Virus record (IMG/VR): IMGVR_UViG_3300033048_000147 | Span: 1 to 23,158 of that record | Source: a virus | DNA: 23,158 nucleotides | Direction: 5' to 3' (one strand) | Shown: piece after piece, positions 51-22,655 of the stretch | Layout: every line of letters begins with the position of its first letter | Position numbering within the stretch: position 1 is the stretch's first letter | Program-made: the position numbers and the translations under genes | Notes under the pieces: generated by a model | The model's database searches: none | What the model was told of the DNA's origin: nothing | What the model saw: only the letters and a program-made list of their open reading frames with translations

Positions 51-1394
51 CTACATCGTATCACCCTGCGGACAGTGCGATGCATGGTGATGTATGACAA
101 GTCGCTGTGCTTCAGAAGATTGGGCCGTAGATACCTGCAGATCGAGGAAGGCGATGATCCGCTCGACCTCTGCTGCCGGATCGGCCAGAAGCCTGTGGTA
201 GCGCACGGTCAATACCCGCTCCTGCCGCACCATCTCAAATCCGGCTGCCTTTGCCTGCCACAATGCTCGTTGGAGTTGCTCGCACTGCTCCGGTGTCGCC
301 CGGAGCCAGCCGTGGGCTTTGGCGGAGCGGTCCACCAGCGACCGGATCGACTCCTCGATCGGCCGATCGATGTGGATGAACCGGCTGTTGGGTTCGAGTT
401 CGAGGAGGAGGTCGATCATGAGGCAGAGGTGGGGGTATTTGCCGCCGATGATGGTGCCTCGGTGGGCGGCTTCTCGTTGGCGGGCTTCGATCCAGTTTTG
501 GAGTCGATCGCGTGTTGTTTCGATTGGGACCGCTCGTTCGGTTGAGGGGAATGGGTATGCCTGTTCGCAGATCATGGCGAGGCCGTGGGCTTCGTAGCCG
601 CCGGTGCTGTGGCCGTTGCGGTTTTCGTAGCCGATGAGGCGGTTGCCCATGTGGACGCCGAGGCGGTGGAGGATGCCAGCCGTAACCGACGAGCCGGAAC
701 GGTGCAGGCCGATGACCCAGACGGGGGGTTGTCGATTCTGTTTGCTGCTGTGTTTCCAGGCGTTCCAGTATCGGTCTTGCGTGATGCGGCCGCAGATGTC
801 CGACCGCCCACCCGCCTGGCCGATGATCCATTGGGTGGGTGCGTAGATGTTGTGCTCGCCTGACTTGTGGAGGAGTTCCATCCGGTGATCGACATGGTGG
901 CGCGGGCACCGGGCGTGGGCGGGCCAGTCGCAGAGGTGTTGGTAGAGTGTGCGGATGAACCGGCCGCGCACGGCGTAGGCCTGTGTGCGGTTGACCATGT
1001 GCGGGCGCACGACCTCGGCGTTGATGCGCTGGGGTGGTTTGGCACGCAGGCCGCGGTGTTGGCCGCCGAGATAGATCTGGTCCCAGTCGGATGGGAGTGC
1101 TTCGAGGAACCGCGCGGTCCGTTCGTCGAAGTCCTCGGGGAACAGGGCATCGTCTTCGAGGACGAGGAGGACTTCGCCGCGTTGGTCCATGCCGTCCATC
1201 AAAGCCTGCTCGAGGATGCGGATGTGGCTGAGCATGCAGCCCCATGCGCCGCCGCCTTGTTTCCACCAGGCGGGAGCGCGGACCTTGCGGCCATCGATGG
1301 CGGGGAAGCGTTCGACGCCGGGGATCGGGCATGAGCGTCGGAACGATTCCCACCGGTCGGGTCTGCGATTGAGGTTGATGCAGACTGCCTTCAT
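51..1394 (-). CDS. Glycosyltransferase family 25-like / sulfotransferase fusion protein
   Basis: This 447-residue protein appears to have two enzyme domains. Residues 1-215 look like a family 25 (LPS-biosynthesis type) glycosyltransferase: an N-terminal strand MKAVCINLNRRPDRW, then GCMLSHIRILEQAL and an acidic LVLEDDALF motif (residues 77-85) where this family binds the metal/nucleotide-sugar. Residues 223-440 look like a PAPS-dependent sulfotransferase: VIGLHRSGSS (227-236) fits the 5'-phosphosulfate loop, and FIHIDRPIEESIRSLVDRS (339-357) fits the 3'-phosphate site. The inferred role is adding a sugar and a sulfate to a glycan or protein. It overlaps the upstream Ser/Gly-rich Hint protein by 4 nt (ATGA), so the two are translationally coupled and that protein or the host envelope could be the substrate. 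There is no signal peptide, so it should act in the cytoplasm. The sulfotransferase assignment is fairly secure; the sugar donor and acceptor are unknown. Confidence 0.8.
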   Translation of the reverse strand: MKAVCINLNRRPDRWESFRRSCPIPGVERFPAIDGRKVRAPAWWKQGGGAWGCMLSHIRILEQALMDGMDQRGEVLLVLEDDALFPEDFDERTARFLEALPSDWDQIYLGGQHRGLRAKPPQRINAEVVRPHMVNRTQAYAVRGRFIRTLYQHLCDWPAHARCPRHHVDHRMELLHKSGEHNIYAPTQWIIGQAGGRSDICGRITQDRYWNAWKHSSKQNRQPPVWVIGLHRSGSSVTAGILHRLGVHMGNRLIGYENRNGHSTGGYEAHGLAMICEQAYPFPSTERAVPIETTRDRLQNWIEARQREAAHRGTIIGGKYPHLCLMIDLLLELEPNSRFIHIDRPIEESIRSLVDRSAKAHGWLRATPEQCEQLQRALWQAKAAGFEMVRQERVLTVRYHRLLADPAAEVERIIAFLDLQVSTAQSSEAQRLVIHHHASHCPQGDTM

Positions 1395-3022
1395 GCTGCG
1401 CCTCCCTCGAAGCCGGAGAGGAGATCGACGACGGTTGAATCTGCATTGCTTGAACCTGCATTGCTTGTCGAACCCGACGGCGCAGCCATGTCGATTCCGA
1501 TGGCGACGGAACTGCTGCCGCCGCTGGAACTCGATCCGGAACTGCCACTGCTGAGTGATGAGCCGCTGCTCTTCGATGAGGCGTTGCTCGTGCTGGAGCC
1601 TGATCCGGAACTGGAGCCCGACGATCCGCCTGAGCCGGAACTGCCGGGGTTGGATGTGCTTGGTCCACCGCCACCACCACCACCCGGCCCTGCGTCTCCG
1701 GGACCAGCGTTATGGACCCACACGCCGTCGGCCAGGTGCATGTTTGTGCCGGGCACATGAAGTGAGACGGTGGAGACTCGGGCATCGATGCGTTCGATGG
1801 ATTCGATTGCTTCTTCTGTGAGGTTCTCACGGATCAGATGATCGCCGACGCGCAGCAACTCGGAAGAGCAGAACCCGGTCTCGTCGCCCCGGCGGACGAG
1901 GAACGGGTGCTCGAAGGTCGCCTTGATGCGTGCATTAATAAGGTAGAAGCCGTCATGTTCACCGAGTGTGACACGGGAGATGGCTGCGCTGCGAGGCGAC
2001 AGCCCGTTCGTCCCGGCGTGCGACAGCCACGAGAAGTGCGCGGCGTTGTCGATGTCCGTATCCAATCCCGGCACGACCAACGATGCGATCCGGTCGCCGG
2101 GCTTGAGTCGTTCGATCGGGACGCGTCGGCCGTCTTCGAGTCGCACGAGTGTGCCGAAGAGGAAGCAGTTGCCGCCGCCACCGGAACCTCCGCCGGACCC
2201 GCCACCGGAGCCACCGCCCGAACCGCCGCCGCTTCCCCCACCACTTCCGCCGCCGGAACCACCCGACCCGCCCGACCCGCTGCCACCGCTGCCGCTTCCT
2301 CCGGACCCGCTGCCGGAACTGCCTTCGGAGCCGCTGCTTGATGCGGAGCCGGAGCCCTCGCTCGAACTCCCTTCCGAACTTGATGCACCGCTCGACGAGG
2401 ACGATGGGGAACTGCTGCCGGATGATGCGCTGCCCGACGAGCCGCTGCTGCTGGAGGAACATGGGGGTGCTTCGGTTGGGTTGCCGATGCGGGCGATGGT
2501 CCACGCGATGTCGGGCGTGTCCCGCTCCGCCTTGGGTTGAATCCACAGGAGGTAGGCCGAGCCGGTCACGCCACTCTGCAGCCGATCTATCGACTTCGGA
2601 TCGACCTCGGCGAACCGATCGCACTCGTCGATCATCTCGACGCGCACCGCCACCGCACCGTCGATGACCGCCCGGCCGATCGCTCCGTCCGGCAACGGCT
2701 CGAGCAGCACAGCGAAACGACCCGTGTGACGCCGCTTTGGCTTGACACCCTTGAAGGTCACACGGTCCTCGAAGACCTCGGCGTTGTCGGTCGGTCGGAT
2801 GAGCGGGGCTTGCACGCCGAGGATGTCGAAGCGTTGGCGAGGCTCGCCGGTGTCGTTGCGGACGAGCACGATGCCGGTCTGTCGAAACTCGCGGCTCGCA
2901 GCGGTGTCGCCCTGCAACGCACGCTGCTTGAAGTCTTGTGCTGCGTCGATGAACGCATTGAACGACGCCGCCGGGATGGCCAGCGGATCGTTCGTTCGCA
3001 CTTTCTTGAACGCGTCGCCCAT
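1391..3022 (-). CDS. Ser/Gly-rich phage tail-region protein with internal Hint (intein-like) domain
   Basis: This 543-residue protein has four visible parts. Residues 1-185 form an ordinary folded domain of unknown function (begins MGDAFKKVRTNDPLAIPAAS). Residues 188-285 are almost pure Ser/Gly, ending in repeated GGGS units. Residues 286-438 are a Hint domain: Cys286 in NCFLFGTLVRLEDG is the splice-type nucleophile, TFEH (369-372) is the TxxH block, and VWVHN (434-438) is the C-terminal His-Asn. Residues 439-543 are a second Ser/Gly-rich region. The residue after Asn438 is Ala, not Cys/Ser/Thr, so classical protein splicing is not expected; cleavage or bacterial-intein-like behaviour is more likely. 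The start has a strong GGAGGA Shine-Dalgarno 12 nt after the preceding gene. A virion role is inferred from position, after the tape measure and before the glycan-modifying enzyme. Confidence 0.85.
   Translation of the reverse strand: MGDAFKKVRTNDPLAIPAASFNAFIDAAQDFKQRALQGDTAASREFRQTGIVLVRNDTGEPRQRFDILGVQAPLIRPTDNAEVFEDRVTFKGVKPKRRHTGRFAVLLEPLPDGAIGRAVIDGAVAVRVEMIDECDRFAEVDPKSIDRLQSGVTGSAYLLWIQPKAERDTPDIAWTIARIGNPTEAPPCSSSSSGSSGSASSGSSSPSSSSSGASSSEGSSSEGSGSASSSGSEGSSGSGSGGSGSGGSGSGGSGGSGGGSGGGSGGGSGGGSGGGSGGGSGGGGNCFLFGTLVRLEDGRRVPIERLKPGDRIASLVVPGLDTDIDNAAHFSWLSHAGTNGLSPRSAAISRVTLGEHDGFYLINARIKATFEHPFLVRRGDETGFCSSELLRVGDHLIRENLTEEAIESIERIDARVSTVSLHVPGTNMHLADGVWVHNAGPGDAGPGGGGGGGPSTSNPGSSGSGGSSGSSSGSGSSTSNASSKSSGSSLSSGSSGSSSSGGSSSVAIGIDMAAPSGSTSNAGSSNADSTVVDLLSGFEGGAA
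1709..2167 (-). other. Hint domain segment within the Ser/Gly-rich protein
   Basis: This is the coding segment for residues 286-438. The N-terminal CFLFGTLVRLEDGRRVPIE matches the pattern of intein/Hedgehog Hint starts, the TxxH block is TFEH, and the domain ends in HN followed by Ala-Gly. There is no homing-endonuclease insert, since the domain is only about 153 residues. Confidence 0.82.
2168..2461 (-). repeat. Low-complexity Ser/Gly coding repeat
   Basis: This segment encodes residues 188-285, nearly all Ser and Gly. It shifts from SSSGSSG-type sequence to regular GGGS units towards the Hint domain. At DNA level it is a degenerate CCACCGGAG-like trinucleotide array on the plus strand, a likely site of replication slippage. 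Confidence 0.85.
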
Positions 3023-3034
3023 GGAATCCTCCGT

Positions 3035-3835
3035 TTAGATTCCGAGGGCCGCGAAGTTGCCGGAGTCGTAGACCTGCTCGACATACGCAGCGGCGGGTTT
3101 CTTGACCAGTGACTTGGCGACATCGTCCACCGCGTCGGCGTAGCGCACCCACAGATACTCCCATCCCTTCTTGGCGATGCCGGTGATGTCGCCGACGGTG
3201 AGGTTCATCGCGTTGGGGCTCGCGGCGAAGCGAAAGCTGATCTCCCAGTCCGAGTCGCTGCGTTTGGAGCCGGATGCGCCGAGGAACAGGCATTCGCCGA
3301 CGGCGAAACCACGGAATACCGCGTCATTGACCTTGCCGGTCAGTGCGAACAGCACGCCCTTGTATTGCTGGGTGACCTGCGCATCGGGCAGGTAGTGCGT
3401 CTCGGCGAAGTTGTAGACGGGGACGGCAACATCCACGCCCTCGACCGAGTCGTTGGTGACGCCGATCGCGCCTTTGAAATCGGGCGGCGTCTGACCCGCT
3501 GGCGCGTAACTGCCGACGGTGGTTAGTGATTGGGTGATGTGGCGCGTGCCGCCGCCGGTGTCGAAACTGAAAGTCGAGCCACCCGTCGGCGGCGGTTGCG
3601 AGTTGCTCGTCAGGCTGTACCGAACCGTGGCTTCCCAGTGCATATCGCCGACCGGTTCGATCCAGACGCTCTGGCGTGGCAGGCCGTCATAGGTTGTGGG
3701 GCTGACCGATTCGACCTCGGTCTTGACCTCGAGGTCATCGTTCGAGCCGCGCGCAGCGTAGACCAGATCGACCGAGGCGTTCGGCCCCGTGGTCGATGTG
3801 CGGCTCTCGAACTTCTCCTCAACGGTGACGGGCAC
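3035..3835 (-). CDS. Conserved phage tail-region protein, function unknown
   Basis: This 266-residue protein starts at GTG (3835), with GGAGGA upstream on the message at rather long spacing. It lies between the tape measure gene (stop at 3854) and the Hint protein. The sequence is beta-rich and soluble, with a Gly/Pro/Ser stretch near residues 80-100 and a C-terminal half containing LTVGDITGIAKKGWEYLWVR. It has no signal peptide or membrane segment. I do not recognise a named family. Its place directly after the tape measure suggests a distal tail or tail-tip component, but this rests on gene order alone. Confidence 0.75.
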   Translation of the reverse strand: MPVTVEEKFESRTSTTGPNASVDLVYAARGSNDDLEVKTEVESVSPTTYDGLPRQSVWIEPVGDMHWEATVRYSLTSNSQPPPTGGSTFSFDTGGGTRHITQSLTTVGSYAPAGQTPPDFKGAIGVTNDSVEGVDVAVPVYNFAETHYLPDAQVTQQYKGVLFALTGKVNDAVFRGFAVGECLFLGASGSKRSDSDWEISFRFAASPNAMNLTVGDITGIAKKGWEYLWVRYADAVDDVAKSLVKKPAAAYVEQVYDSGNFAALGI

Positions 3836-11346: not shown

Positions 11347-11916
11347 CGTGTGATTCTCCTGCTGTTGCTGTGCGGCGATTCGGGCGCGGGTTTGCTGGTC
11401 CGCACCAAGATCGACGAAACTGATCTCGTTGAGTGTGGTCTTGTGGGCGATGTAGATCGGGCCTTTGAACTTTCGGCCGTTCACCGTCACCGATACATCG
11501 CGTTTGATGAACTCGAGTTCGTCGACCGATGCGCCGATCGAGGCTTGCCAGGGGAAGCCCTTCTTCCCGCTGGCCACGATCTCTTGGGCTGCGGGGGTGT
11601 CGCGAGACACGACACCCTCGGCGATGAGCTTGCCGTTTTCGATGGCGATCCGCTCGGTGTGCCCGACGCCCTCGAGCGCCGAGTGCTGGAAGCGAACCGG
11701 GCGCTGCTGGGCCGGGATCTTCAGGCCGTCGAGGTTGACCACAACCGGGTAGGCGAACCCGAGCGTTCGGATCGGACCGCCGGTGTAGGCGACCATCGAG
11801 AACTTCGGGAGCGCATCGGACCCGCCACCATCACCATCCGGGTGCGCGGCGGCTTCAATTGCGACCTCACAATCGATCGCCAGAATGTCAGGCGGCTTAT
11901 TGATCGTCTGGGTCAT
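9850..11916 (-). CDS. Prohead protease-major capsid protein fusion
   Basis: This 688-residue polyprotein combines an HK97-type prohead protease with the major capsid protein. Residues about 10-185 are the protease: RFQHSALEGVGHTE (75-88) holds the likely catalytic His, WQASIGA (123-129) the likely catalytic Ser126, and TTLNEISFVDLGAD (160-173) is the conserved C-terminal strand. Residues about 186-300 are polar and helical, Gln/Ala/Glu-rich, consistent with a scaffold (delta) domain. Residues about 310-688 are the capsid fold (GSIIEAAMCVAGGL, TYGRMFGIDRRDLINDDLDAL, PAVAPVILLVPNALYVP-like region). I chose ATG 11916 because AAAGGAAC lies upstream; it overlaps the portal gene by 20 nt. An internal start at 11346 probably makes the capsid protein alone. 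Confidence 0.92.
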   Translation of the reverse strand: MTQTINKPPDILAIDCEVAIEAAAHPDGDGGGSDALPKFSMVAYTGGPIRTLGFAYPVVVNLDGLKIPAQQRPVRFQHSALEGVGHTERIAIENGKLIAEGVVSRDTPAAQEIVASGKKGFPWQASIGASVDELEFIKRDVSVTVNGRKFKGPIYIAHKTTLNEISFVDLGADQQTRARIAAQQQQENHTMPDPQNNHDDAAMTDDTSKNNAATIEASQPSPAQRNGTITASDPAAEIDQITSRARAESERRQRIQAMTAEVLTQRPELADDLGRLAHAALEAGWKPDKYQLEVMRLGRSYEGIGGPRSQSDRIEGSIIEAAMCVAGGLDTETLESQFTERTLDVAQRQYRHGLGLCETLLIFAQANGYRGYGRSDLKGLLQFAFADVQAAGLSTMSLPGILSNVANKFLRAGFEAVESTWRELAAIRSVRDFKQVSSYSLTGGFVYEEIAPGGELKHATVGETAYTNQAKTYGRMFGIDRRDLINDDLDALTAVPRRLGRGGALKLNEVFWSAFLNNAAFFIAGNNNYAEGVGTALGIDALTQAETLFLDQTDPDGHPLAVAPVILLVPNALYVPATQIMNSTELRDPSSTKKTPVANPHAGKFRPVRSSYLSNPKYTGFSSLAWYVLADPNDMPVIEVAFLNGQQQPTVESADADFNNLGIQMRGYHDFGVALQEPRGGVKMKGEA
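11356..11360 (-). promoter_or_regulatory. Internal ribosome binding site (AGGAG) for nested capsid start
   Basis: AGGAG on the minus strand sits 9 nt before the in-frame ATG at 11346, exactly at the boundary between the protease domain and the polar scaffold-like region. It is imposed on codons for the Gln/Glu run before Met191. Confidence 0.6.
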
Positions 11917-13417
11917 CGTCTTGTTCCTTTGTGCCTGCGGGGACGGGAGCATCTGGGGCGTCTGCGGCGTCCGGGGGCTGAATGCCGAGCGTCTGCATCA
12001 ACTCGCGTTCCTTGGCGATCTGGCGCAGCTCGGCCTCCCAGTCGAGCCCCTGCTTGGCGTATTCGCGTGCAAGCGATGTCGTGCGACTGTCGAGCCGCGT
12101 GGACTGGGCGTTGGCTTCCTTGGCCGGGTCGACGTGCTCGGTCCCGTCCCAGAACCACTGGTGGGTGCGAACGGCATCGCGCAGCCGCATTGATTGCGGC
12201 AGCAGCCCCTCGACAAGAACAGCCTCGTCGAACCACGCGTGGAAGATGTGATCGAGCACGCAGCGTTCGATGTGCGCCTGCTCGATGCGGATGCTCTTGA
12301 AGTAGGCCTGGTGGTCAAGCCGACCGGAGGCGTAGTTGTACCCCGAGGAGTTGCCAGCCGCGACGTTGAACGGCATGTTCAGGCACCGGGCGATCTCGTT
12401 GAGAATCTCGCGCTTGAACTCGCCGTAGGTGGTAGAAGGCTGCTCGGCCTTCATCTGCGCCATCTTCCAGCCGCCGGGCATGGTCAGGAGCATCCGCTGT
12501 TCGAGTTCGATCGCATCCATCGGCTCGACGTCTTCCGCCTCGCCGTTGGCCGGTGCGTCCGTGTAGAGCACACCCGCGAAATCGGCCGCTGTCTCTGCGG
12601 CGCTGATCACGGCGAGTGTGAACCGGCGCAGTTGCGCAAACAATGGGAGCGCGGGTGTGATGTCGGGAATGCCACGACTCTGACCGGGCCGGTCGGCCCG
12701 GAAGTAGTGGATCATGACCTGCGCGGAGATGCGGTTGTACTCGAGGTTTGAGAACCATCGCAGATCGCCGGGATGTTGCTTGAGGACGTGGTACTCGGTC
12801 GGATTGCCGAAGTCGTCGAAGACGATGCCGTCGATCATGTGGGGGGCGCGAGGTGTGTGAGGGTTGTTGGTGCGGAGATCCGGCGTCGCGATCTGATCCG
12901 CCTCGATGAGACGGACATCGAGCTGGACTGGCGAGGCATGACTGGGATTGCGGGCCAGGAGCATGAACCCCTCGCCGGACTCGGCCCGCGCCATCCGCAT
13001 CGTGCGGAGTTTGGCGGCGAGCCCGATGGTCCGCGCCCAGTCGGCAAAGGCCATCTCGATGCGCCGATCCGCATCGGGATCACCGGTCAACATCTGGAGA
13101 CGCGGCCCCGTCCCGATGACATCGTTGGCGAGCGTCAGCACGATCCCGCGGGCGTAGCTGTTGTTGGCAACCTCGTAGCGGGCCCGGTTGCGCAGCACGC
13201 GCCGGACTTCGGGATTGGCGGCCGCGTCGGCGCTGAGACCATCGGCGTTCGCCCAATGGCGGCGGTTCCCATCCGTGGTCGCCGCCGCGTCGTACCGGGC
13301 TTGAAGAGGTCGCAGACTGACGACTGGATTCCGCACCCGCGCACCGTGCGCGACTCGTGTGTCATCGCTTCGGTGCGGTGTGTGCGTAGCCAGCGTGTTG
13401 ATCAGTCGCCTGAGCAT
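11897..13417 (-). CDS. Phage portal protein (lambda family)
   Basis: This 506-residue protein forms the dodecameric DNA gate at the capsid vertex. The pattern is that of lambda gpB-type portals: a basic N-terminus, RRVLRNRARYEVANNSYARG (a hallmark start), TLANDVIGTGPRLQML, FADWARTIGLAAKLRTMRMA, ESGEGFMLLARN, the VRLIEADQI strand, HYFRADRPGQSRGIPDITPA, and CLNMPFNVAAGNSSGYNYAS. The last residues are Asp/Gln-rich. ATG 13417 is preceded by a purine-rich GAGGGA. It lies between the small connector-like gene and the protease-capsid fusion, as expected. Confidence 0.95.
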   Translation of the reverse strand: MLRRLINTLATHTPHRSDDTRVAHGARVRNPVVSLRPLQARYDAAATTDGNRRHWANADGLSADAAANPEVRRVLRNRARYEVANNSYARGIVLTLANDVIGTGPRLQMLTGDPDADRRIEMAFADWARTIGLAAKLRTMRMARAESGEGFMLLARNPSHASPVQLDVRLIEADQIATPDLRTNNPHTPRAPHMIDGIVFDDFGNPTEYHVLKQHPGDLRWFSNLEYNRISAQVMIHYFRADRPGQSRGIPDITPALPLFAQLRRFTLAVISAAETAADFAGVLYTDAPANGEAEDVEPMDAIELEQRMLLTMPGGWKMAQMKAEQPSTTYGEFKREILNEIARCLNMPFNVAAGNSSGYNYASGRLDHQAYFKSIRIEQAHIERCVLDHIFHAWFDEAVLVEGLLPQSMRLRDAVRTHQWFWDGTEHVDPAKEANAQSTRLDSRTTSLAREYAKQGLDWEAELRQIAKERELMQTLGIQPPDAADAPDAPVPAGTKEQDDDPDDQ

Positions 13418-13768: not shown

Positions 13769-14683
13769 TCAGATCCAAGGGCCGGACGCTTGCCAGTTGC
13801 GTTCGAACTGTGTTCCGTTGCTGATGGCAGCTACGACCGGCAGCAGGAACTCGGTGACCTTCTCGACGACTTCCGGGAAGTCTTCGGGACACACCGCTGG
13901 CACGAGGCGTTTGCGGAACGCCTTCCACTGCGCACGCCTTGAAGGGTCGGCGGCGAATCCAAGGGTCATCGCCAACGGCTGGACTGGAATGGCCGTGCCA
14001 CGATGCTCACAGGTCGTTCGGATGGCTCTCGCGAGAGTCGCGCCATCAAACGAGAAACCGCGGGCCAACCACCAGATGTCGTGGAAGTCCTTCATCCTGC
14101 TGTTGGCCTCGCCACGTCGGAGCATGACCTCGAGCTTCTCGGCCACGGTGGTCTCCGGTGGATACGCCTTCAGACACGGCCCTGGCATGTCAAGAAACGT
14201 CGGGAATTTGATATCACGTGGCTCGGGGGTCACCCTGTCTCCGAAACCGACATCGATCTGCATCGCCAGTCGCGTATTGCCAAGCATGCCGCGGAAGGTC
14301 ACACGGATCCCCGAATAATCAGCTTCCTCTACGATCGTCGCTCCGAGCACGCTGCTCTCGTCGAACGCGAGGCCGTCGTCTTCGACCGTCTGCTGGCAGA
14401 TATCCCGAACAATCGACTCCACCGTGTCGATCTCATTGGCGACCCGGCCGAGAAGGTCGATGTCACGAGTCGTGCGATACGACGCGGTGTCCCATACCCG
14501 CAGCAGAAGCGCGCCTTTGAGGACGAACTTCGACGCGTGCGGCGACTCTGAGAGCCGATACAGGAATCGCTCCATGGCGAAGAGCTGCACAAGGTCATTG
14601 AACGAGCGCCCGCTGGAACGCGCCTGATTGAGCAGACGGGCGTGGACGGAGGCCGCCAGGTTGGTCGGCTGGCCCTTCTTCAC
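13769..14683 (-). CDS. abiEii: AbiEii-type nucleotidyltransferase toxin
   Basis: This 304-residue protein is the toxin of a type IV toxin-antitoxin / abortive infection pair. It has the nucleotidyltransferase core: KGALLLRVWD (56-65) then TRDIDLLG (72-79), a G-A variant of the GS...DxD motif with Asp74 and Asp76 as metal ligands. MQIDVGFGD (141-149) is the third-acidic region, AEKLEVMLRRGE (181-192) the conserved AEK stretch, and SRMKDFHDIWWL (195-206) the Lys/Asp motif. It starts at GTG 14683 and overlaps the antitoxin gene by 4 nt (GTGA). Family members modify tRNA or bind GTP and cause reversible growth arrest. All key motifs are intact, so it should be active. Confidence 0.9.
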   Translation of the reverse strand: MKKGQPTNLAASVHARLLNQARSSGRSFNDLVQLFAMERFLYRLSESPHASKFVLKGALLLRVWDTASYRTTRDIDLLGRVANEIDTVESIVRDICQQTVEDDGLAFDESSVLGATIVEEADYSGIRVTFRGMLGNTRLAMQIDVGFGDRVTPEPRDIKFPTFLDMPGPCLKAYPPETTVAEKLEVMLRRGEANSRMKDFHDIWWLARGFSFDGATLARAIRTTCEHRGTAIPVQPLAMTLGFAADPSRRAQWKAFRKRLVPAVCPEDFPEVVEKVTEFLLPVVAAISNGTQFERNWQASGPWI

Positions 14684-15306
14684 AGGATCGCCTCGATGTA
14701 GGGCATCATGATCTGTCGGACACGATTGATGTCGGCGAACCTCAGCAGATCATCCATGTTTGATCCTCGACGCCGGAGATATGTTCGCAGCGCTTCGACC
14801 GCGACATCGGTCCCGACCTTGTTGCGGAACTTAAAGCAGTCAGCGATCGTCTTCGGTGCGCTGAAGATGCGCACGGGTGTCCCGCTGATGCTGTGCTCCT
14901 CCACCCCCTTGGTGAAGGACCGGCCACCGAAGCGATAGATCTGGATTGGCGGGTGAGCGAGTTTCGGTGTCCGAGAGCCCGGGGCCAGCGCGAGATCCAC
15001 GCGGTGTGGGATCTGTGTCGTCAGCTCGTGAAATGCCAGCGCAGAGATCAGGCACACGACGGCCGAGGGCACTTTGATCGCGGCCACGACGAGATCCGGG
15101 TCGGAAATCGGGGGTGCATCGGCGAGCTGGTAGATGCCACGGCTCACCCGCTCGATGATGCCCGCCTCCCGCATGGCGGAGAGGGTCCGCGGGTGGACGC
15201 CAGCCGCCCGAGCGTCGCCCGCGCGGAATGTGCCTCCAGCTTCTTGGAAGAACCTCCTGGCTCGCTCGAAAGGAGAGGATGTCGGGCTGGATGGGTGTTT
15301 GGACAT
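14680..15306 (-). CDS. abiEi: AbiEi-type antitoxin / transcriptional regulator
   Basis: This 208-residue protein is the antitoxin partner. Residues about 10-70 form a winged-helix DNA-binding domain (FFQEAGGTFRAGDARAAGVH, PRTLSAMREAGIIERVSRGI, then YQLAD), the typical AbiEi N-terminus. Residues about 75-205 are the antitoxin domain (VCLISALAFHELTTQIPHRV, FSAPKTIADCFKFRNKVGTD). AbiEi proteins neutralise AbiEii without stable binding and repress their own promoter through inverted repeats; a candidate palindrome lies just upstream at 15322-15337. The pair is cotranscribed, antitoxin first. Confidence 0.9.
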   Translation of the reverse strand: MSKHPSSPTSSPFERARRFFQEAGGTFRAGDARAAGVHPRTLSAMREAGIIERVSRGIYQLADAPPISDPDLVVAAIKVPSAVVCLISALAFHELTTQIPHRVDLALAPGSRTPKLAHPPIQIYRFGGRSFTKGVEEHSISGTPVRIFSAPKTIADCFKFRNKVGTDVAVEALRTYLRRRGSNMDDLLRFADINRVRQIMMPYIEAIL

Positions 15307-19973: not shown

Positions 19974-21110
19974 TCATCCCGCTTCTCCTCTCCTAGCCTC
20001 GACTTCGGTCGAGGCTTTCTCTCCGGCCTCAGCGTTTGCGGCCCCCGGAATCCGCTCGGCCTTCTTCCCCGCGAACTCCTCCCATCGCTGCACGATCACA
20101 TCGCAATACGCCGGATCGATTTCCATGAGGAACGCATGACGATCCGTCTGCTCGCAGGCGATGAGTGTCGAACCGCTCCCTCCGAAGAGGTCGAGGACAT
20201 TTTCATCCGGGCGTGATGAATACTGAATCGCGCGGACCGCTAGTTCGACGGGTTTCTCGGTGAGATGCACCATGCTTTGTGGATTAACCTTCTTCACATG
20301 CCAGAGATCGGTCGCGTTGTTGGGGCCGAAGAACTTGTGCCCGGCCCCCTCGCGCCAGCCATAGAAGCAGATCTCGAACGCGCCCATGAAATCTTTGCGC
20401 GTCAGCACCGGGTGCTGCTTGTCCCACACGATCCCCTGGCTGAAGTACAGCTCGCATGCCTTGAGCGGTGCCGGGTAGTTCCCGATGTTCGCGTACCCGC
20501 CCCAGATGTAGAACGAGCCTCCCGGCTTGAGGACTCGGCTGATGTTGCCGAACCACGCGAGGAGCATCTCGTCGAACGCTTCGTCCGTCATGAAGTCGTT
20601 TTCGAGTGGCCGATCCTTCGCCCGCATCTTCTTGTGCGTGGCCTTGGCCTTCTCTGGATGACGGGCCAGGTCGAACTTCTGGTGGTGCTTCTTCTCGGGT
20701 GCCGTGAAAGAAGAGTTGCCCGCCGCGATGGCGTTGTTGCTCCGAGGCTCGACCTTCACATTGTACGGCGGGTCAGTATTCACCATGTCGATGGTGTTCC
20801 CATCGAGCAACCGATCCAGATCATTCTCGCTCGATGAATCGCCGCACAGCAGACGATGATCGCCGAGCACCCACAGATCGCCGGGCTTGGTGATCGGTTC
20901 ATCCGGCGGCTCGGGAACATCGTCTGGATCGGTCAGCCCTTCCGTCACCCCGGCCTCACCGGCCATCAGGCTGGCAAGTTCGTCCTCATCAAAGCCAAGC
21001 AGCGACCAATCAATCCCCGCCTCCTGCAACTCGGCGATCTCGATCGGCAGCAGGTCCATGTCCCAGGTGGCCAACTCGCCGGTCTTGTTGTCCGCGATGC
21101 GGTACGCCCG
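19974..21110 (-). other. Methyltransferase half of the fusion
   Basis: This segment encodes residues 516-893. It carries the ParB-type linker (RIADNKTGELATWDMDLLPI), the acidic LTDPDDVPEPPDEPITKPGD lead-in, catalytic DPPY at 20763-20774, a recognition region, the SAM motif LDLFGGSGST (821-830) and an Ala/Glu-rich tail. A ParB/sulfiredoxin-like domain, usual upstream of this linker, is missing. Confidence 0.88.
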
Positions 21111-22655
21111 GATGCTCGTCGGGCGGAAGGTAACCGCGATGCTTCCGGCCTCCCCATCGTACTCAACCGTGGAGATCAGGAGGTTGAGGAGCCGGGCCTG
21201 CTCGCGTGGGATCAGGTTGGCCCAGAGTGTGTCGAAATCAGCGAACGCGGCTTCGGCTTCTGCTGGCGAGACCGTCTCATGCTCCAATGCAGCGATCCGC
21301 GTATCCAGTTCGGGGCGTCGCTGCTCGGCAGCGCTGATCCGTTCGTGCAGGTCTGCGACGCGAGCGGTGACATCGCTTGTCATGGCACCGTCCGCGACCA
21401 GACCCCGCAACTCCTTATCGTGACGAGCCGTTTCACGGCTGAGATCGTCGCGTTCCCTCGTCAGCGCAGCCAACTCCTCGGAAACCGTGACTTGTGATTC
21501 GGTGAGTACCCGGGCGAGGAGCGACTTGTCGGCTGCAAGCCCCCGTACCTCGTCCACCACCACACGCTCGATCTCTTGTGCGGGCAGCGTACCCGTCTGA
21601 CACGCGCTGCTGCCGCTCTTGATGGCGCGGATGCATCGGTAATAGCGATAGAACTTCCCCTTCCGCATGCCGCAGAATGTGTGCGTCATAGCACTGTCGC
21701 AGGTCTTGCACCGGAGGAGCCCGCGGAGCAAGGCCCCGTATTTGTTCCGCACTTCCACACCGCCGGTGCGGCCATTGTGCCTGAGTTGAGCCTGAACTGT
21801 GTCGAACAGTTCCAGATCGATGATTGCTTCGTGCTCGCCCTCGTAGATCTGGTCCTTGTGTTTGATCTTCCCGGTCAGGACCGGATTCGTCAGCAGCGTG
21901 TAAAGCGTCGCCCTGTCGAAGGGGCGTCCTCCGACCTTCTTGCCCTTCTTCGTGACACGCCGTTTGTTGACCCACCTGCGTCGTCCAAGTTCGCTCGCAA
22001 CGGGGAGCAGCGATCCTTTCTCGATGTACATCTGGAAGATCGTGCGGACGCGTGCGGCCTCCGTGGCGTTTATGACGAGCTTCGGGCTGCCGCCAGATCG
22101 ATCGACATCGTACCCCAGGACGGGCACGCCGCCCGCCCACTTCCCCTTGCGTTTCTGCGCCGCGATCTTGTCGCGGATGCGTTCGCCGATGATCTCCCGC
22201 TCGAACTGTGCGAAGGAGAGCAGGATGTTCAGCGTGAGGCGGCCCATCGAGTGGGTCGTGTTGAACTGCTGCGTGACGGACACAAACGAGACGCCGCGTT
22301 TTTCGAATGTCTCGAGGATCCGAGAGAAGTCCATCAAAGAACGGCTGAGGCGATCCACCTTGTAGACAACCACGCAGTCGATCTTGCCCTCCTCGATGTC
22401 GCGGAGCATGTGGTCAAGGGCGGGACGTTCCATGCTCCCGCCGGAGAAGCCGCCGTCGTTGTACTGCGTCGGGACCACGGTCCATCCCTCGGCCTTCTGG
22501 CTGGCGATGAACGCCTCGGCGCTTTCACGCTGGGCGTCGAGGGAGTTGAACTCCTGGTCGAGCCCTTCCTCGCTGGACTTCCGGGTGTAGATCGCGCACC
22601 GAACGGTCGGTGAGTCCAGCCCGTTGGTTTTCTCACTCTTGCGTCGGCCACTCAT
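19974..22655 (-). CDS. Serine recombinase-DNA adenine methyltransferase fusion
   Basis: This single 893-residue frame holds two complete enzymes. Residues 19-170 are the serine recombinase catalytic domain: YTRKSSEEG with Ser27 as nucleophile, DGGFSGGSMERPAL (67-80), and DRLSRS (101-106). Residues 175-300 are the recombinase DNA-binding domain. Residues 316-352 are the zinc ribbon (Cys316-x2-Cys319, Cys341, Cys352), and about 375-465 a coiled coil, as in large serine integrases. At residue 516 the recombinase ends and RIADNKTGELATWD begins, the linker normally following a ParB domain in ParB-methyltransferase proteins. Then PGDLWVLGDHRLLCGD (591-606), DPPY (628-631) and FGGSGST (824-830) give motif order IV before I: a beta-class, probably N6-adenine, methyltransferase. 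All catalytic residues are present. It overlaps DUF2924 by 4 nt. Likely roles are prophage integration/excision plus DNA methylation. Confidence 0.93.
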   Translation of the reverse strand: MSGRRKSEKTNGLDSPTVRCAIYTRKSSEEGLDQEFNSLDAQRESAEAFIASQKAEGWTVVPTQYNDGGFSGGSMERPALDHMLRDIEEGKIDCVVVYKVDRLSRSLMDFSRILETFEKRGVSFVSVTQQFNTTHSMGRLTLNILLSFAQFEREIIGERIRDKIAAQKRKGKWAGGVPVLGYDVDRSGGSPKLVINATEAARVRTIFQMYIEKGSLLPVASELGRRRWVNKRRVTKKGKKVGGRPFDRATLYTLLTNPVLTGKIKHKDQIYEGEHEAIIDLELFDTVQAQLRHNGRTGGVEVRNKYGALLRGLLRCKTCDSAMTHTFCGMRKGKFYRYYRCIRAIKSGSSACQTGTLPAQEIERVVVDEVRGLAADKSLLARVLTESQVTVSEELAALTRERDDLSRETARHDKELRGLVADGAMTSDVTARVADLHERISAAEQRRPELDTRIAALEHETVSPAEAEAAFADFDTLWANLIPREQARLLNLLISTVEYDGEAGSIAVTFRPTSIRAYRIADNKTGELATWDMDLLPIEIAELQEAGIDWSLLGFDEDELASLMAGEAGVTEGLTDPDDVPEPPDEPITKPGDLWVLGDHRLLCGDSSSENDLDRLLDGNTIDMVNTDPPYNVKVEPRSNNAIAAGNSSFTAPEKKHHQKFDLARHPEKAKATHKKMRAKDRPLENDFMTDEAFDEMLLAWFGNISRVLKPGGSFYIWGGYANIGNYPAPLKACELYFSQGIVWDKQHPVLTRKDFMGAFEICFYGWREGAGHKFFGPNNATDLWHVKKVNPQSMVHLTEKPVELAVRAIQYSSRPDENVLDLFGGSGSTLIACEQTDRHAFLMEIDPAYCDVIVQRWEEFAGKKAERIPGAANAEAGEKASTEVEARRGEAG
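19995..20016 (+). terminator. cUUCGg hairpin terminator of the plus-strand island
   Basis: AGCCTCGAC-TTCG-GTCGAGGCT is a perfect 9-bp stem with the very stable cUUCGg tetraloop, followed by TTCTCT on the plus strand. It lies 27 nt after the stop of the last plus-strand gene and within codons for the C-terminal tail of the recombinase-methyltransferase. On the minus strand no T-run follows, so it should act only on plus-strand transcripts. Confidence 0.8.
21111..22655 (-). other. Serine recombinase half of the fusion
   Basis: This segment encodes residues 1-515: resolvase-type catalytic domain with Ser27, recombinase domain, zinc ribbon, coiled coil and the terminal strand SIAVTFRP (505-512) that usually ends such integrases. 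It is a full-length large serine recombinase by content, neither truncated nor frameshifted. Confidence 0.9.

Follow-up and report, generated by a model that had tools for sequence, protein, structure and literature searches.

A BIL type A-like Hint domain and a conserved lysine motif, its candidate acceptor, in a Ser/Gly-rich protein of a phage structural-gene cluster

The window, i.e., the whole analyzed stretch of 23,158 nucleotides (IMG/VR virus record IMGVR_UViG_3300033048_000147, positions 1 to 23,158), contains a structural-gene cluster with the gene order of a tailed phage: GpA-type terminase, lambda-type portal, a protease/major capsid fusion, decoration, neck and tail tube proteins, tape measure, gene 3035-3835, an ORF encoding a Hint domain, and a gene for a GT25 glycosyltransferase joined to a sulfotransferase. 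The first-pass annotation, made from the letters of the window, had placed the Hint domain in a phage protein, which agrees with this setting; a tail protein, as it was also called, is what its gene position, after the tape-measure gene and gene 3035-3835, would suggest. The annotated ORF at 1391-3022 is present, with the correction that its coding strand is the minus strand (ATG at 3022, stop at 1391-1393). The plus-strand reading of the same interval is interrupted by stops and was rejected. The protein, its parts and the adjoining gene are located as follows:

1391-3022, minus strand: whole ORF, 543 aa, with the order N-terminal domain, Ser/Gly arm, Hint, Ser/Gly arm
2459-3022, minus strand: N-terminal domain, aa 1-188, a conserved phage gene product without known fold
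2168-2458, minus strand: N-side Ser/Gly arm, aa 189-285
2168-2170, minus strand: Asn285, residue -1
1709-2167, minus strand: Hint domain (BIL type A-like), Cys286-Asn438
1907-1918, minus strand: block B, T-F-E-H, aa 369-372
1709-1714, minus strand: terminal His437-Asn438
1706-1708, minus strand: residue +1, Ala439
1394-1708, minus strand: C-side Ser/Gly arm, aa 439-543
1553-1573, minus strand: lysine motif K484-S-S-G-S-S-L490, the proposed acceptor
51-1394, minus strand: GT25 glycosyltransferase (N-terminal) and sulfotransferase (C-terminal) in one protein, overlapping the Hint ORF by 4 bases

All residues previously attributed to the Hint domain, namely, Cys286, TxxH (T369-F-E-H372) and H437-N438 followed by Ala439, were found in the translation. 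The Ser/Gly tracts described on both sides of the domain are borne out by composition, with 45 S and 43 G in residues 190-284 and 38 S and 28 G in residues 439-543. The exceptional character of Ala at +1, where Asp is usual, the near-invariant Asn before Cys1 and the downstream lysine motif were absent from that annotation.

The N-terminal domain (aa 1-188) gave no PDB profile match and no PHROG match. In nearly all related phages it is encoded directly after gene 3035-3835, usually as a separate gene lacking Hint. The clade of the window has this domain and the arm-Hint-arm cassette in one fused protein, next to which the gene for GT25 and sulfotransferase is conserved. In other clades, the Hint protein begins with a short conserved peptide and is encoded further downstream, behind genes of a methyltransferase and an MptE-like protein.

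Single-sequence Pfam matches of the window ORF, to PT-HINT (E 0.0066) and Hint_2 (E 0.027), are below threshold. The profile of 28 relatives matches the BIL domain of C. thermocellum, 2lwy (E 3.4e-7). For the AlphaFold2 model of the Hint domain (pLDDT 93.2, pTM 0.86), the best PDB matches by Foldseek are 2lwy (E 1.4e-8) and 6y75 (E 6.9e-8), and structural alignment gave Z 18.6 and 18.8, respectively, at rmsd 1.3-1.5 A over 128-130 residues. The Z values of inteins (up to 18.4) and of Hedgehog (17.7) are so close to these that both are effectively tied with BIL domains, and the choice between BIL and intein therefore rests on sequence features. By these features, namely, Cys1, TxxH, the HN end and the absence of a +1 nucleophile, the domain with its modelled Hint fold is assigned to the A-type BIL domains. 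The assignment of residues 286-438 to Hint, predicted from sequence and model, is solid, and the same Hint residues in the sequences of 86 distinct relatives exclude chance resemblance.

The family sample comprises 86 distinct Hint domains from GTDB and IMG/VR loci, represented by Phycisphaerae prophages and viral contigs. Genomes with relatives are those of Phycisphaerae and other Planctomycetes, including the chromosome-level records CP053450 and CP054186. A sample of 397 genomes from the class to which genome G001 belongs contained the family in 25, some of them with several copies. Two contigs with relatives are binned as Nevskiales and may be mis-binned.

Conservation of Cys286 among relatives, on which the first-pass annotation had made its reading depend, was found throughout: both Cys1 and the terminal His-Asn are present in 86/86. 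Thr, Glu and His of block B are invariant in the 28-member alignment (Cys with TxxH, 28/28), which has 38 invariant columns in all; Cys1, TxEH and HN are kept although the domains are only 46-91% identical. Residue -1 is Asn in 84 of the 86 relatives and Ser in 2; such a nearly fixed Asn is unusual and could tune the lifetime of the thioester. The +1 position is occupied by Asp (75), Thr (6), Ala (2), Gln (2) or Tyr (1), Cys, Ser and Thr being missing in 80/86 and Ala being limited to the window and its near relative. Median dN/dS of the Hint domain is 0.10 over 321 pairs (0.18 for the window against L024), indicative of purifying selection. The earlier statement that Ala at +1 blocks standard splicing chemistry holds for the class 1 route, but not as a general claim, since Thr stands at +1 in six relatives and, as described in PMC4031507, cleavage is usual and ligation possible in A-type BIL domains, which lack the +1 nucleophile.

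The C-terminal arm, otherwise poor in Lys, contains the motif K-x-S-G-S-S-[F/M/L] in all 86 relatives, in 82 of them exactly and in 4 as near variants (KSSSSSF twice, KSNGSSM and KSSGAGN). It is kept in 14 of 14 clusters formed at 70% Hint identity. First noticed in 31 members, the motif was then predicted for 16 further loci and recovered in 16 of 16. The spacing between HN and the motif is variable, in most members 20 to 54 residues, in keeping with a flexible tether. In the AlphaFold2 model of Hint with the tail, the motif is disordered (pLDDT about 36) and undocked, which lends docking on Hint no support; a transient substrate would be compatible with this model. Against an acceptor role speak an additional Lys between HN and the motif in ten members and the tail of L034, of 16 residues, in which only KSSG is left, at +6. 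The motif codons vary, including both Lys codons, all four Gly codons and an exchange of AGC and TCN for the last Ser, and no copy of the motif was found elsewhere in the first set of loci; selection thus acts on the peptide. An origin at the DNA level, as a recombination or regulatory site, was rejected because Ser codons change between the AGC and TCN families while amino acids remain constant. A compositional accident of the Ser/Gly arms was likewise rejected: the N-side arm has no Lys in the last 60 residues before Cys1 in 86/86 relatives, L139 (Hint at 11844-12302) retains the motif as KHSGSSF (GKHSGSSF) in a C-terminal arm rich in His and Ser instead of Ser and Gly, and the motif is missing from orthologues lacking Hint.

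Five such Hint-less orthologues were found (L103, L107, L108, L111 and L133). They retain 'MSEPTRYYLYIPVWATGRAPQGGGSS' at the N-terminus, 'EGG(M/V)EGVPPA' at the C-terminus and both arms, and KxSGSS was found in none of the five. In the gene 3035 tree, Hint-bearing lineages surround a single clade made up of the four of them whose sequences are distinct and usable; the absence of Hint is therefore probably due to a single loss. Judging by these sequences, the motif and Hint were lost together in one clade. As an argument for the lysine as acceptor this co-loss is weakened by the probable single event and by a possible exchange of the segment as a block. At the position of Hint and the lysine motif, L103 (10365-12279), L108, L111 and L133 contain a duplicated segment (SDSFxxxLTLGSxGTI... 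/ SDSFTGTxTTxPSGTI...), possibly a functional replacement of both.

The N-terminal domain of L002 (6350-8600), L009 (7308-9543) and L026 is interrupted by a second arm-Hint-arm cassette and thereby divided between two adjacent ORFs, both of which have a Hint and a lysine motif of their own; in the genome of L093 the domain is likewise split into two ORFs by a second cassette. Hints at the same position are 75-93% identical between double-cassette loci, while the two copies within a locus are about 60% identical, which indicates that the double cassette is old and maintained. A split intein in L002, L009 and L026 was rejected, as neither Hint is incomplete and the second half is located at the N-terminus of its own ORF.

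Among known systems, the C. thermocellum BIL shares with the family the fold (2lwy, Z 18.6, rmsd 1.3 A, 128 residues), Cys1, TxxH, HN and the absence of a fixed +1 nucleophile. It is 27% identical; the family differs from it by its placement among structural genes of phages and between two Ser/Gly arms, by mostly Asp at +1, a nearly fixed Asn at -1, an invariant Asn in place of the block F His, and the downstream lysine motif. The highest Z (18.8) belongs to BIL2 of the Tetrahymena BUBL1 polyubiquitin-like locus (6y75/6tmm), 22% identical, for which PMC8616854 describes splicing that forms an isopeptide between a lysine epsilon-amine and a C-terminus, conjugating the N-terminal ubiquitin-like domain to other proteins. 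BIL2 is eukaryotic and Zn-regulated, with ubiquitin-like flanks; in the phage family, the domain is directly flanked in all members by disordered Ser/Gly arms instead of ubiquitin-like domains, with the lysine in a short invariant motif. Similar to the window protein, gp117 of Erwinia phage pEa_SNUABM_7 (L177:520-1956, 'virion structural protein'), encoded beside tail-fibre genes, has a flexible collagen-like region followed by a C-terminal Hint with the HN end, but it is about 26% identical, ends in HN-Thr and lacks both Ser/Gly arms and the KxSGSS motif. By analogy, this distant Hint with collagen-like arms in Erwinia jumbo-phage virion proteins suggests that a flexible arm joined to Hint is a wider phage design. 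Pretoxin HINT (PF07591), the best single-sequence Pfam match, is an autoprocessing Hint of long proteins that are secreted or delivered, a trait that the phage family would share; the score of the match is below gathering, and in the relatives examined Hint is followed by a short Ser/Gly-rich arm and not by a toxin domain. Hedgehog differs by a sterol-recognition region after Hint, where the family has a Ser/Gly arm, and by a Hog domain without the HN end that is found here.

Self-cleavage or transfer of the N-terminal part, as proposed in the first-pass annotation, is a reasonable expectation from the intact Hint active site, and autoprocessing activity is predicted with high confidence from sequence and model. 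Because Tetrahymena BIL2, the closest structural match, forms lysine isopeptide bonds, we propose, by analogy and with a probability of roughly 0.45, that the domain is an active A-type BIL acting as a one-shot protein ligase in a phage structural protein, with the motif lysine as acceptor. Cys286 would convert the Asn285-Cys286 peptide bond into a thioester by an N-S acyl shift, assisted by T369 and H372 of block B, and Asn438 would cyclize with the help of His437, releasing the domain from the C-terminal arm. As the +1 residue is not a nucleophile, the acyl group would not be handed over to its side chain and would pass to the epsilon-amine of Lys484, tentatively the natural acceptor, in the same chain or in a neighbouring copy. 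Such a transfer would yield a Ser/Gly fibre that bears the N-terminal domain and is isopeptide-branched or cross-linked. We infer thioester formation, cleavage, the acceptor role of the lysine and the presence of the protein in the virion. A rather unlikely extension is a phage-encoded, enzyme-free system of covalent assembly: every copy would combine a BIL donor with a short lysine tag (KxSGSS[FML]) linked to it genetically, and copies would be joined through isopeptide transfer into a cross-linked, possibly glycosylated, Ser/Gly fibre or mesh on the virion.

The simplest rival is an ordinary A-type BIL, in which the Cys1 thioester and Asn cyclization are followed by hydrolysis or by attack of the +1 alpha-amine (linear splicing of the arms), and the motif serves some other function, such as partner binding or assistance in the Hint reaction. 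Every sequence feature of BIL-A is present, and according to PMC4031507 cleavage dominates in BIL-A and alpha-amine splicing is the published proposal; this reading, which leaves an invariant lysine motif tied to Hint without a reason, is possible while falling well short of probable. Standard class 1 splicing by a true mini-intein, which Thr at +1 in six members would favour, is very improbable, as +1 is Asp in 75/86 and Ala in the window, and in the profile alignment the block F Asp and His of 2lwy and archaeal inteins are aligned with a variable residue (Ala or other) and an invariant Asn, respectively. Moreover, the domain sits between variable low-complexity arms, whereas a class 1 intein would be inserted at a conserved position of a host protein that is complete without it. 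For an inactive structural remnant serving only as a spacer, nothing speaks beyond the absent +1 nucleophile, and the invariance of Cys1, TxEH and HN at 46-91% identity, together with low dN/dS, makes it the least probable reading.

A Hedgehog-like reaction, in which the N-terminal part is passed to a nucleophile other than protein, for example, a sugar supplied by the adjacent glycosyltransferases, would explain why a methyltransferase, MptE-like or glycosyltransferase gene adjoins nearly every Hint of the family. The same neighbours are retained in Hint-less orthologues, so they go with the Ser/Gly protein and not with Hint; the glycosyltransferases may glycosylate the Ser-rich arms. The Hog domain of Hedgehog is not known to use Asn cyclization, whereas HN is conserved here, and a sugar acceptor is improbable. 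Ligation to the motif lysine is the reading that we prefer.

No published account of this Hint family was found in open-licence literature. As far as that literature shows, the kind of domain, A-type BIL, is known, and the phage structural setting, the near-invariant Asn at -1 and the coupled lysine motif are undescribed. The natural role of BIL domains is a long-standing question, for which the window represents a large conserved family in a defined genomic setting, with a candidate acceptor motif verified out of sample and natural orthologues lacking Hint. If ligation to the lysine is correct, it would be a second way in which phage particles become covalently cross-linked, in addition to the capsid cross-links of HK97 type, and possibly a compact protein-ligation tool with a Lys tag.

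Elsewhere in the window, an ORF of 893 aa (19974-22655, minus strand) encodes a large serine recombinase (Resolvase, Recombinase and Zn ribbon) with a C-terminal N6/N4 DNA methyltransferase; the relative L013 matches it in the recombinase part only (query residues 15-517). Genes of the AbiEii nucleotidyltransferase toxin and the AbiEi antitoxin, a phage-borne system of abortive-infection type, are located between portal and terminase (13769-15306, minus strand).
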